Source of the DNA: Anaerolineales bacterium
GTDB taxonomy: Bacteria > Chloroflexota > Anaerolineae > Anaerolineales > UBA11579
Assembly: GCA_019637755.1 (NCBI GenBank)
Contig: JAHBVC010000001.1
Span: 1,268,480-1,332,479, forward strand
Reading direction: 5' to 3'
Length of the DNA: 64,000 bases
Shown: in pieces, positions 43,201 through 61,185 of the stretch
Layout of the letters: every line of letters begins with the position of its first letter
Position numbering within the stretch: the stretch's first letter is position 1
Position numbers and translations under genes: made by a program
Notes under the pieces: generated by a model
What the model saw: only the letters and a program-made list of their open reading frames with translations
What the model was told of the DNA's origin: nothing
Database searches by the model: none

Positions 43201-43878
43201 TTATTCGTGCATCGTGTAACTTGCGAAAGTTTCCACTTCTTCAGGCAGGAAGACAACCTCTTCTTTGCCCATCAACTTCTCACTCATTTTAAGTTTGACC
43301 AGTTCCACCAGGCCATCATGGGTAACGAAGTTCATGTTGTCCGTGGGCACAGTCAGCACCGGGCATAAGGTGAAGTTGGTCACCCAATCTTCGTACAAGC
43401 CATTCAGTTGCTCCAGATACTCAGTGCTGATCTTGGCTTCAAAATCACGGCCACGTTGGGCAATGCGGCGCTGCAATGTGGGCACTGAAGCCCGCAGGTA
43501 GATCACCAGGTCAGGCGGGCGCAGCAGATCGCACAGCAAGCGGTACAGATCGCGGTACGAGGCGTAATCGCGCTCATCCATCTGGCCTGAGAGGTACAAG
43601 TTCTTGGCGAAGATCTCGGCGTCTTCGTAGACCGAACGGTCCTGGATCACGGAGTTGGGATCGGCCAGCAGGCCAAGGTGCATGCTGAGGCGGTGACGCA
43701 AAAAGAATACTTGGGATTGGAAGGCCCAGCTACGCATATCGGTATAGAAATCTTCAAGATACGGATTCTCTGCTACCGGTTCGTAGTACGGGTTCCATTG
43801 CAAATGTGTGGCGAGCTTCCCCACCAAGGTCGATTTTCCGACGCCAATGTTTCCAGCCACCGCCACAAAATGCTTCAT
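43201..43878 (-). CDS. Deoxynucleoside kinase (dGK/dAK family)
   Basis: 225 residues. The P-loop GNIGVGKST is at 9-17, base-selective EPVAENPYLEDFY at 33-45, DRSVYEDAEIF with the DRS motif at 80-82, and the lid RRIAQRGRDFE. This is the pattern of bacterial deoxyadenosine/deoxyguanosine kinases. It salvages purine deoxynucleosides to monophosphates. Its ATG overlaps the stop of the ATP-grasp protein gene by 4 nt, so the two are co-translated; the reason for this pairing is unclear. Confidence 0.93.
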   Translation of the reverse strand: MKHFVAVAGNIGVGKSTLVGKLATHLQWNPYYEPVAENPYLEDFYTDMRSWAFQSQVFFLRHRLSMHLGLLADPNSVIQDRSVYEDAEIFAKNLYLSGQMDERDYASYRDLYRLLCDLLRPPDLVIYLRASVPTLQRRIAQRGRDFEAKISTEYLEQLNGLYEDWVTNFTLCPVLTVPTDNMNFVTHDGLVELVKLKMSEKLMGKEEVVFLPEEVETFASYTMHE

Positions 43879-57591: not shown

Positions 57592-58650
57592 ATGAAGTTA
57601 GGCATCATTGGCCTGCCGCAGGCCGGCAAGACCACTATTTTTAACGCCCTCACCCACAGCAATCGCCCGCTCGCCATGAGCGCCGGGCGCATTGAAGTCA
57701 CCACCGCGGTGGTAGACGTGCCCGATGAGCGCCTACTCAAGCTGGCGGCGCTGTTCAGCTCCAAGAAGATCGTGCACGCCCAGATATCCTTTGCGGATGT
57801 GGCCGGCATGGGCTCCAGCGAGGCGGGCCAGGGACTCAGCGGCCAACTGCTGAACGCGCTGAGCGGCATGGATGGCTTGCTCATTGTGCTACGTGCCTTT
57901 GAGGATGATAGCGTGGCGCACCCGGCGCTCACCGTGGACGCGGCGCGTGACCTGCGCTCGATCGAAGACGAGCTGCTGCTGAATGACCTGATCATCGTGG
58001 AGCGCAAGCTGCAGAAGCTCAAGGAAGAGCGCAGCAAAGGCGGCCGCGATATTGCTGCCCTGGACCGCCAGATCGCGCATTTCGAGAAATTGCACGCCGC
58101 CCTATCAGATAACAAGCCGCTGCGCGTCGCCGGCCTGACGGAAGACGAACAGACCGCTAGCGCCGGCATCGGCCTGCTGACCCTGAAGCCGATCCTGGCC
58201 GTGGTCAACCTGGGCGAAGGCCAGGATCAGCCCGCCTTCGATACCCTGCTGCCGGTGCTCGCCCTGCAAGGGAAGCTGGAGATGGAGCTGGCGCAGCTGC
58301 CCGCCGATGAGCAGTCCATGTTCCTGCAAGAATATGGCTTGCAAGAGCCCGGCTCGCTGCGCATCATCCGTGCCGCCTATGATTTGATGGACACGCAGAC
58401 CTTCTACACCGTCGGCGAGCCCGAAGCACACGCCTGGATGCTGCGCAAGCACGCCAGCGCCCTGGATGCTGCCGGCGCCATCCACTCCGATATTGCCCGC
58501 GGCTTCATCCGCGCTGAGATCGTGGCCGGCGATGAGCTCCTCGAGCTCGGCGGTATGGCGCAAGCGCGTGACAAGGGCCGCCTGCGCCTGGAGGGCAAGG
58601 AGTACAAGATGGCCGACGGCGACATCATCAATGTTAGGTTTAATGTGTGA
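57592..58650 (+). CDS. ychF: YchF/OLA1-type ATPase
   Basis: 352 residues. The P-loop is GLPQAGKTTIFNAL (7-20), with DVAGMGSSEAGQGLSGQLLNAL as the G3/switch II region. The base-specificity motif reads NLGE instead of NKxD, which is why this family prefers ATP. A helical insertion (LIIVERKLQKLKEERSKGG) and the C-terminal TGS domain (RGFIRAEIVAGDELLELGG ... KMADGDIINVRFNV) complete it. It binds the ribosome and acts in stress responses. It is the first gene on the right side of the candidate origin. Confidence 0.95.
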   Translation: MKLGIIGLPQAGKTTIFNALTHSNRPLAMSAGRIEVTTAVVDVPDERLLKLAALFSSKKIVHAQISFADVAGMGSSEAGQGLSGQLLNALSGMDGLLIVLRAFEDDSVAHPALTVDAARDLRSIEDELLLNDLIIVERKLQKLKEERSKGGRDIAALDRQIAHFEKLHAALSDNKPLRVAGLTEDEQTASAGIGLLTLKPILAVVNLGEGQDQPAFDTLLPVLALQGKLEMELAQLPADEQSMFLQEYGLQEPGSLRIIRAAYDLMDTQTFYTVGEPEAHAWMLRKHASALDAAGAIHSDIARGFIRAEIVAGDELLELGGMAQARDKGRLRLEGKEYKMADGDIINVRFNV

Positions 58651-58667
58651 CCGAGAAAATACTTACT

Positions 58668-59774
58668 CTAACTATCGACTGACAATTTATATTCATCATC
58701 GTCTAGTTCAGCTAGCCTTGATGCCATTGGTGCAATTCTATTCTCTAACAGAGACCGCTCAGGAGTTTCAGGCTCTAAGAAATTCTTAGGAACCTGCTGC
58801 GCCCCAACAGTTGAAATTAGAGTTTGTCGAAGGCTGTTGGCAAGCTCCTGATTCTCGTGCTGGTTTAGCTTTTCAGAAACCGATAGCGCCTTCTCTATCA
58901 ACTCTACCTTTGCCTGTTTAGCGGCAGTCTCCACGAGTTCTGTTTCAGCAATTCTCTTCCTTCGCGTTAGGAGCAAATATCCAAAATTATCAATTAGGAG
59001 CTTGATGGTTTCTGCTACACCAAGATCGACCTTTATAGGAGCTTCGCCAGGAGAATGAAACTCGATCGATTCTAGGTAGGGCTTGGCAAGAATTACCTCC
59101 TGCCCCGTTCTTTTGGCTACCGTATAAATTAGATTTTCTACTGCGATGATTAACTGATTAGTTCGATTTAGAACATCGGTAAATTTCTGCCAATCTAGTT
59201 GACCTTCGCCTGTTCTAACTACAGCAACTCTACCAAGAGGCCTCGGCTTGGTAATTGCGACAACTTCTGCGTTTTTGTATTTATGGATGTAATTGTCAGC
59301 TCGCACCCCAAAACGAGTCAGAGGCCCTTGTTGTTTGCTCCAGGCAAGGTGACCTGGTACATCAGCATGATTTTTGAGCCGAACAAATAGAGGGGTCAGC
59401 GGTTTCCTGTCAAAGACAGAGCTACTTACTATTCCAAAGCCTATGCTGGACACGTCCGTTGTCGCAGCTCTATGCCAAATAACGGTATCAAACGAATACT
59501 CTAAAGTTTCCCCGCCTTCCTCTCGGTGAAACCGTCTTCGCTCTGCGGTTAATCTATCGCCGCCCAAAGAAAGATATACGTCAAGATGATTAATAGGCAC
59601 ATAGTACCTAAAACCATGAATGTAAAGTCTGCGGTAATGGTCAAAGGTTCTTAGTGCAATCTCCCTTCGGCCCGATTTTGCAAGAAAGTTGTTAATTTCG
59701 CGGAAAGAGATATGTCCACCTTTTCTAAGGTAGAGCAAGTAACCTTCTAAAGCATCTTCCGTTTTAGCAGCCAA
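58668..59774 (-). CDS. Uncharacterised protein in a low-GC insert
   Basis: 368 residues starting with TTG 59772-59774, five bases after GGGGAGG; TATAAT lies at 59797-59802. GC content is about 40-45% by eye, far below its neighbours, and codon use shifts to A/T endings, pointing to recent transfer. The N-terminal 80 residues (GYLLYLRKGGHISFREINNFLAKSGRREIALRTFDHYRRLYIHGF) look helical, possibly a wHTH-like module. The middle is beta-rich, residues 225-260 are hydrophobic-helical, and residues 280-330 form a charged coiled coil. No catalytic motif is recognised. It stands divergently next to a DNA methyltransferase. Confidence 0.8.
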   Translation of the reverse strand: MAAKTEDALEGYLLYLRKGGHISFREINNFLAKSGRREIALRTFDHYRRLYIHGFRYYVPINHLDVYLSLGGDRLTAERRRFHREEGGETLEYSFDTVIWHRAATTDVSSIGFGIVSSSVFDRKPLTPLFVRLKNHADVPGHLAWSKQQGPLTRFGVRADNYIHKYKNAEVVAITKPRPLGRVAVVRTGEGQLDWQKFTDVLNRTNQLIIAVENLIYTVAKRTGQEVILAKPYLESIEFHSPGEAPIKVDLGVAETIKLLIDNFGYLLLTRRKRIAETELVETAAKQAKVELIEKALSVSEKLNQHENQELANSLRQTLISTVGAQQVPKNFLEPETPERSLLENRIAPMASRLAELDDDEYKLSVDS

Positions 59775-59913
59775 TTATCCTCCCCAGAGATATAAGATTA
59801 TAAGCCCATGACATTCTATGGGGCCTTACCTTTATCTGGCCTCGACTCTTCGCGCGGGTCGCAGAGGAGCCCTGTAAGAATGCACTGCCCACATGAACGT
59901 TTGCGGAAGGGGC

Positions 59914-59967
59914 TTGGGGAAACCAACTTTGGTTTCCCCAACGGGGTCGCAGGGGCAGCGCCCCTGC
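59914..59967. repeat. Tandem pair of strong palindromes
   Basis: TTGGGGAAACCA (59914-59925)/TGGTTTCCCCAA (59930-59941), a 12-bp stem with 4-nt loop. GCAGGGGC (59949-59956)/GCCCCTGC (59960-59967) follows, an 8-bp stem with 3-nt loop. No T-run follows on either strand. The pair looks like a REP-type mobile palindrome. The rest of 59775-60087 holds the promoter of the low-GC gene and no other convincing gene. Confidence 0.7.
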
Positions 59968-60087
59968 AAAAGACTCACGATTGCAAGCACCCTGTGTATT
60001 TCTGCATAGCAGACCATTCTGCCGGCCCCTCTCGCCAGCACAAATTCGCCCCCTTCTCCATAATAGGCGCTGGAGATCCACGCGCCC

Positions 60088-61185
60088 ATGCCTCGCGATG
60101 CAACGTTGCCCCTCAACACCATCCTCCACGGCGATTGTCTGGATGAGCTTGCTAAGCTCCCCGCCAACTCAGTAGACCTCGTCTTCGCTGACCCGCCCTA
60201 CAACCTGCAGCTCGGCGGTGAGCTGCGCCGCCCCAACAACAGCAAGGTGCGCGGTGTGCAGGAGGCCTGGGACCGCTTCGATGACTTCGCCGCCTACGAT
60301 GAGTTCACGCGTGCCTGGCTGGCCGCCTGCCGCCGCGTGCTGAAGCCAACCGGCACCCTGTGGGTCATCGGCAGCTATCACAACATCCACCGCGTCGGCA
60401 ACGTACTGCAAGACCTGGGCTACTGGCTGCTCAACTCCATCGTGTGGGTCAAAGCCAACCCCACGCCCAACTTCCGCGGCACGCGCTTCACCAACGCCCA
60501 CGAGACGCTGCTGTGGGCGCAGAAGGAGCACGGCGCGCCCTACACCTTCAACTATCACGCCATGAAATCGCTCAACGAGGAGAAGCAGATGCGCAGCGAT
60601 TGGCTGCTGCCCATCGCCTCCGGCGGTGAGCGCCTGCGTGCCGATGGAGAGTCGGCCCACCCGACCCAGAAGCCAGAATCGCTGCTCTATCGCGTGCTGC
60701 TCTCCAGCTCGAATCCAGGTGACGTCGTGCTCGACCCCTTTTTCGGCTCCGGCACCACCGGCGCCGTGGCCAAGCGCCTGCACCGTAACTGGATCGGTAT
60801 TGAGCGCGATGCCAACTACGTCCGCATCGCCCGCCGCCGCATCGGCCAGATTGAGCCGGTGGCCTACGAGAATGAGCTATTCGAATCCTACGAGCCGCGC
60901 CGTGAACCGCGTGTGCCCTTTGGCAACCTGCTCGAGGCTGGCCTGCTGGAAGCTGGCCAGCGCCTCTACCTGGGCGAGAAGGGCCGCGAGAGCGCCCGCA
61001 TCCTCGCCGACGGCTCACTCAAGTTCAACGGCCGCCGCGGCTCCATCCACCAGCTCGCCAAAGACGCGCTGGATGGCCCGGCCAACGGCTGGCAGCACTG
61101 GTACTACAATGACCCGCATAGCGGCCAGCGCCGCCCGATCGACGACCTGCGCCAGCGCCTGCGTCAGGCGACAAAAGTGAAGTAA
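60088..61185 (+). CDS. CcrM-like DNA adenine-N6 methyltransferase (predicted GANTC specificity)
   Basis: 365 residues. It is a beta-class methyltransferase: catalytic ADPPYNLQLGGELRRPNNSK (DPPY at 35-38) precedes the SAM-binding LDPFFGSGTTGAVAKRLHR (216-234). VIGSYHNIHRVGNVLQDLGYWLLN, TRFTNAHETLLWA and SAHPTQKPESLLYRVLLSS match Caulobacter CcrM almost block for block. So does the C-terminal domain (RVPFGNLLEAGLLEAGQRLY ... GSIHQLAKD ... NGWQHWYYND) that CcrM uses for GANTC recognition. No restriction enzyme is recognisable nearby, so it may be an orphan. The ATG at 60088 is chosen; a GGAG lies 12 nt upstream. Confidence 0.92.
   Translation: MPRDATLPLNTILHGDCLDELAKLPANSVDLVFADPPYNLQLGGELRRPNNSKVRGVQEAWDRFDDFAAYDEFTRAWLAACRRVLKPTGTLWVIGSYHNIHRVGNVLQDLGYWLLNSIVWVKANPTPNFRGTRFTNAHETLLWAQKEHGAPYTFNYHAMKSLNEEKQMRSDWLLPIASGGERLRADGESAHPTQKPESLLYRVLLSSSNPGDVVLDPFFGSGTTGAVAKRLHRNWIGIERDANYVRIARRRIGQIEPVAYENELFESYEPRREPRVPFGNLLEAGLLEAGQRLYLGEKGRESARILADGSLKFNGRRGSIHQLAKDALDGPANGWQHWYYNDPHSGQRRPIDDLRQRLRQATKVK

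Follow-up and report, generated by a model that had tools for sequence, protein, structure and literature searches.

The gene at positions 58668-59774 on the minus strand of the 64,000-nucleotide stretch of DNA analysed here (the window) encodes, as judged by sequence comparison, a member of a rare family that has no description and carries a predicted HTH-like domain at its N terminus. It sits as single-gene cargo in a small, defence-prone exchange slot between a ychF-type gene and a conserved methyltransferase gene, and we regard the chances as about even that this acquired gene has a defence role itself.

RESULTS

An intact gene of foreign composition

The open reading frame (ORF) at 58668-59774(-) is intact over 368 codons and starts at TTG, with a ribosome-binding site (GGGGAGG, 59779-59785, minus strand) 4 nt upstream; this start is supported by the N termini of the relatives described below, which align with it. 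When the 45 non-overlapping ORFs of the window that reach 150 aa are ranked, its GC content (0.443) and GC3 (0.388) are the lowest, relative to window ORF means of 0.613 and 0.733 (z of -4.4 and -5.0, respectively). When the interval 58651-60087 was shuffled 2000 times, the longest ORF obtained was 257 aa, versus 368 aa in the real sequence. The gene ends 17 bp from the ychF-type gene, and on its other side 313 bp separate it from the divergent methyltransferase gene on the plus strand. The sharp contrast in composition, the TTG start with its ribosome site and the divergent arrangement, all pointed out in a preliminary description of this DNA, are thus borne out. The second most AT-rich window ORF (43201-43878) has a GC content of 0.53 and a near-normal GC3 of 0.67. 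A perfect 13-bp inverted repeat (59914-59941) lies between the gene and the methyltransferase gene; one further, partial copy was found elsewhere in the same genome, and a related palindrome occupies the same place in the genus genome G006.

No family in Pfam, PHROGs or NCBIfam matched the protein even at an E-value of 10, and PDB sequence and profile searches yielded nothing credible. The gene was absent from 100 other close genomes and, by a family profile at an E-value of 0.001, from 399 other genomes of the phylum; within the genus, it is present in 1 of 11 genomes. Neither the whole protein nor fragments of it found a relative among viral contigs, phages and plasmids, and a viral scan for the family motif gave 10 loci, none of which encoded a relative by tblastn. 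Weak matches in the phylum search spanned E-values of 0.007 to 1; the two that we inspected (L002 and L003) were judged spurious, as they read as cyclase-like and nucleotidyltransferase-like proteins. The foreign composition, together with the absence from the close and phylum genomes, supports horizontal acquisition, as the preliminary description had proposed. A gene that had decayed, or that was a passenger with no function in its host, would also show such a composition and a presence in only one genus genome, but this reading is quite unlikely in view of the full-length frame, the good ribosome site and relatives that align from the first residue.

Three relatives define a rare family

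A first scan of genome_contigs returned no relative. Searching genome_contigs for the pattern Y(V/I/M)PINx(L/F)DV (residues 58-66) gave 23 loci, and tblastn on these loci identified three that encode relatives, namely, L147 from an Acidimicrobiia metagenome-assembled genome (MAG) (E 2e-16), L140 from an Actinobacteria MAG (E 1e-11) and L150 from a Bacillota MAG (E 4e-10). N-terminal fragments of 84-85 residues from these relatives share 38-42% identity with the candidate, the first ~66 residues being conserved. One further match (L167) was an 85-aa frame across a long repeat protein and was judged spurious. The gene is therefore not the orphan that it had been called, even though its family looks rare: among 396 genomes sampled from the phylum to which L147 belongs, the only convincing match was in the genome of L147 itself.

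Because MAFFT misplaces the C-terminal parts when the four full proteins are aligned, we compared regions pairwise against shuffled sequences. For the N-terminal domain, 0/1000 shuffles reached the score in any of the six pairs of the four proteins. For the middle region, the score was reached by 8/1000 shuffles for candidate-L147, by 472/1000 for candidate-L140 and by 539/1000 for candidate-L150. For the C-terminal region, the corresponding counts were 1/1000 for candidate-L147 and 0/1000 for L140-L150, and similarity was not significant for candidate-L140 (266/1000) or candidate-L150 (655/1000). These scores support full-length homology for candidate-L147 and for L140-L150, and suggest that beyond the N-terminal domain the family comprises two such branches, weakly joined via L147.

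A predicted HTH-like N-terminal domain

The conserved N-terminal domain (residues 1-70; 59565-59774, minus strand) is marked in the alignment of the relatives by the motif ..EIN..L...G...S.RTF.HY.RL...GF..Y(VI)PIN.LDV. An AlphaFold model, built from a 4-row alignment of 172 residues, has pLDDT values of about 80-96 for residues 1-60, 68 for residues 61-70 and <50 from residue 72 on, and predicts four helices (residues 5-17, 24-33, 41-52 and 61-69). Among 264 chains aligned with VIA-align, the best fold match of this domain was the SETMAR DNA-binding domain at Z 4.1, a value that, according to VIA-align's own notes, may reflect merely a common arrangement; Myb, Mu transposase, Lrp-type and phage small-terminase chains followed at Z 2.7-3.4, among unrelated chains, and many of these weak matches were to DNA-binding HTH chains. 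Residues 1-70 are thus probably HTH-like and may bind DNA. The likeness to Lrp/Myb/transposase-type HTH domains consists of a helical N-terminal domain and a weak structural match (best Z 4.1); it differs from a family relationship in that no sequence relation to the candidate was found, and the comparison covers the N-terminal domain only. Foldseek searches of PDB and BFVD with the fragment model gave no match at E ≤ 0.001, and the structural comparison of residues 1-70, the comparable part of the protein, turned up no housekeeping family. A single-sequence fold of the full-length protein had a mean pLDDT of 37.5 and was left out of structure searches. The earlier statement that no domain is recognisable hence stands for the library searches, but not for the N terminus, where an HTH-like helical domain is predicted.

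The middle and C-terminal regions

PilZ c-di-GMP receptors (PF07238) are defined by RxxxR and [D/N]xSxxG motifs and fold as a six-stranded barrel. In the middle region of the candidate (residues 77-165; 59280-59546, minus strand), RxxxR (R80-R84) is followed by DxSxxG (D107-G112), in order and in register, raising the possibility of a PilZ-like beta domain; both motifs also occurred in order in 1867 of 200000 shuffles. In hhalign comparisons with 28 PilZ domains taken from this phylum, residues 73-175 outscored 299 of 300 shuffles, whether the alignment was local or global. In the full-length comparison the candidate outscored every one of 48 pieces cut from other window proteins, two of which came within 1.3 score units of it. 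With a HMMER PilZ profile, the candidate ranked 294th of 3013 reported sequences, the remainder being its own shuffles; the Pfam PilZ profile did not detect it, and none of the three relatives gave a PilZ signal. A PilZ-like c-di-GMP-binding middle domain, confined to the candidate among the family members, is thus weakly supported. If such a domain bound c-di-GMP through R80xxxR84 and D107xSxxG112, the protein might act as a c-di-GMP-gated effector or regulator, and the seven GGDEF domain matches of the host genome, which has no PF07238 match, would agree with this as do the ordered motifs and the hhalign scores. The likeness to PilZ receptors ends at these motifs, however: the failure of the Pfam profile, the HMMER rank, the two window proteins that score nearly as high, the relatives without a signal and the low pLDDT of the middle region all weigh against c-di-GMP gating, which we consider unlikely.

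For the C-terminal region (residues 195-325; 58800-59192, minus strand), similarity to L147, hydropathy and the model point to a SPGE hairpin, a hydrophobic helix and a long helix. The most hydrophobic 19-residue stretch falls in the same region in all four family proteins (mean 1.23 at position 251 in the candidate, 2.10 at 225 in L147, 1.88 at 253 in L140 and 1.14 at 259 in L150), and a low-confidence single-sequence model places C-terminal helices at residues 280-305 and 309-323. E-values against defence models were unconvincing for the candidate and its relatives alike. The sole PADLOC match of the candidate was a weak one of residues 230-332 to PD-T4-10_B (E 0.01), a model that matched none of the three relatives at an E-value of 0.1. 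PD-T4-10B is described as a toxin that is neutralised by PD-T4-10A, the two ORFs overlapping (PMC9519451). Likeness to that defence pair, as described there, is limited to the weak match to its toxin component, and the candidate differs from it in lacking an overlapping antitoxin gene and standing alone between the ychF-type and methyltransferase genes; the match is too weak for the candidate to be counted as a member.

An exchange slot beside a conserved methyltransferase

The left wall of the slot is the gene at 57592-58650 (plus strand), which from its protein sequence we take to encode a ychF-type GTPase. Its right wall (60088-61185, plus strand) encodes a CcrM-type adenine methyltransferase with N6_N4_Mtase and RAMA domains. 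The methyltransferase is present in 22 of 24 family genomes and retains pepF as its neighbour. The candidate gene, found in 1 of 101 close genomes, does not co-occur with it as a restriction-modification accessory would, and is a newcomer beside a conserved methyltransferase. Nearness to the methyltransferase, which the preliminary description had given as its reason for suspecting a defence function, therefore loses its force.

In 10 of the 11 genomes of the genus both walls share a contig, and in all 10 they flank the slot; the eleventh (G005) is a fragmented assembly with no ortholog-level methyltransferase match. In the nine genus genomes measured besides the window, the ychF-methyltransferase interval was 1155 bp (G006), 3262 bp (G004), 1108 bp (G008), 1040 bp (G007), 784 bp (G001), 150 bp (G003), 776 bp (G010), 2737 bp (G002) and 779 bp (G009), versus 2-185 bp for the methyltransferase-pepF interval in the same genomes. 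In the five genus genomes where the moco-UPF0173 interval was found, it was 45-57 bp; the UPF0173-ychF interval, likewise measured in five, was 1743 bp in G006 and 691-752 bp in the other four, and is therefore also somewhat variable. A tRNA-Leu gene lies inside the latter interval in the window and in all five measured genomes. For the rest of the family, 10 of 12 further methyltransferase loci were fetched and ychF was found in six, with intervals of 10, 11, 53, 162, 535 and 2502 bp; the methyltransferase-pepF pair was interrupted in two loci outside the genus (G016, 777 bp; G021, 1868 bp).

Five of the nine other genus genomes carry different AT-rich cargo in the slot, with defence-type domains in three of them. 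More specifically, G004 carries a SIR2-like gene (SIR2_2, E 3.4e-9; PADLOC SIR2/Aga_SIR2) and an AAA_25 gene, G008 a MrcB_N-HNH gene (MrcB_N, E 2.2e-49), and G002 a D12 methylase (E 3.9e-53), a DndB-like protein (DndB, E 4.9e-7; PADLOC DpdB) and one unknown. The cargo of G006 (232 aa) and G007 (236 aa) consists of unknown proteins with hydrophobic segments, neither of which matched a defence model. G001, G009 and G010 carry lipoprotein-like genes, the slot of G003 is empty, and in a sister genus a TetR-led cluster occupies the slot. Cargo GC content was 0.38-0.46 in six genomes including that of the window, the exceptions being the AAA_25 gene (0.65) and the lipoproteins (0.50-0.60). The ychF-methyltransferase interval is thus a small exchange slot that has been filled repeatedly with AT-rich, often defence-type genes. 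If about 5% of accessory genes were of defence type, an assumed value, finding such genes in at least three of five cargo loci would have a probability of ~0.001; on these small numbers and this assumed background rate, the slot is a site enriched in defence genes. Scanning the slot cargo revealed no recognisable integrase or transposase, and no direct repeats bounding the window insert were found.

Chromosomal hotspots with exchangeable defence cargo have been described for the E. coli pan-genome (PMC10121019) and for the Listeria immigration control region (PMC10059834). The slot resembles these hotspots, as described there, in its fixed position and its variable, defence-rich content, but differs from them in usually holding one to three genes, in having no recognised integrase or transposase inside and in adjoining a conserved solitary methyltransferase.

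Several further features were observed at these loci. The SIR2-like gene of G004 (interval positions 45-1439, L066) has an extra N-terminal region. In four genus genomes (L069, L071, L072 and L073), a CCCCATTrTCCATAATGGGG-like hairpin, possibly an operator or a terminator, directly precedes the methyltransferase gene. In a sister genus, HigA-like HTH and RelE/HigB-like genes, named by eye, lie between the methyltransferase gene and pepF (L097:8220-8895), indicating that the far side of the methyltransferase gene also receives cargo.

Genomic contexts of the relatives

One of the three relatives, L147, clearly lies in a defence island, and this dense acidimicrobial island spans L168:1-19000. 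It contains a Fic protein (SoFic, E 1.7e-85), an Xre-type HTH gene, a tyrosine integrase, a C5 methylase 1.2 kb from the relative, Shedu SduA (E 7e-15) at ~4 kb, a PemK-type toxin, a kinase-HD gene resembling PD-T4-6 kinases and a fragment similar to SNF2-type defence helicases. The strand of the relative also carries, 11 bp downstream of it, a HEPN-like gene with an RNEIVH motif, which scores 19.0 bits against Pfam RiboL-PSP-HEPN, less than the cut-off of 28.4. The L140 relative (L140/L169) lies at the end of a contig, next to a tyrosine integrase and two insertion-sequence genes. The L150 relative lies downstream of a RelA/SpoT-like gene and a methyltransferase-like gene, and no established defence system was found at its locus; the RelA/SpoT-like protein (L150:2654-4006) matches the PADLOC candidate model PDC-S33 (E 7e-10) and has RNRLVH near its C terminus. 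The preliminary description had held that homologues never found near methylase or defence genes would speak against its proposal. L147, close to the C5 methylase and Shedu, does not show that pattern; L140 is beside an integrase, and L150 beside a gene that matches a candidate-defence model.

DISCUSSION

The link to defence that had been drawn for this gene survives on a different footing: it is carried not by the nearby methyltransferase, but by the defence-type cargo in three of the five other AT-rich slot loci and by the defence island around L147, which together suggest a defence role. On this basis, we judge that the gene could equally well prove to be defence-related or not. As an acquired gene of a rare family in a slot whose swapped genes include several known antiviral ones, it is a reasonable candidate for a putative new defence-related gene. 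Against such a role, the cargo elsewhere is partly non-defence (the two unknowns, the lipoprotein type in three genomes and the TetR-led cluster), and there are only three relatives, of which L150 has no established defence system nearby and L140 lies at a contig end. The unconvincing matches to defence models, the low Z of the HTH-like domain, and middle and C-terminal regions without significant similarity to L140 and L150 also count against it.

The same evidence bears on an acquired one-component transcription regulator outside defence, in which the HTH would bind DNA, the middle region would bind a small ligand and the slot would tolerate any cargo. The HTH-like N terminus, the lack of a nuclease or NADase domain recognised by Pfam or PADLOC, and the lipoproteins and TetR-led cluster hosted by the slot would all suit such a protein, but the defence-type cargo and the relative within a dense defence island do not favour it, and we consider it a possible though less probable explanation.

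Under the defence reading, the N-terminal domain encoded by this horizontally acquired single-gene cargo would bind DNA, the variable middle region would sense a signal, and the C-terminal part would act as, or control, an effector when a phage or plasmid invades. The gene might provide defence on its own or regulate a toxic partner, for which the HEPN-like gene 11 bp from L147 offers a possible model. A bolder and distinctly improbable extension is a new class of compact defence protein, in which an HTH, a second-messenger sensor (PilZ-like here) and a helix/coiled-coil effector or control module would travel as single-gene cassettes in a recombinase-free slot. In a literature search, we recognised no paper on a link between PilZ and defence, on the family of the candidate or on the ychF slot, which is not proof of absence.

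A low-GC ORF that was formerly uninformative has thereby become part of a small family with testable relatives. The compact exchange slot could be searched for defence genes not yet known, with the cargo of G006 and G007 as possible examples, and, if the family is defensive, the HEPN-like gene neighbouring L147 would hint at its mode of action.
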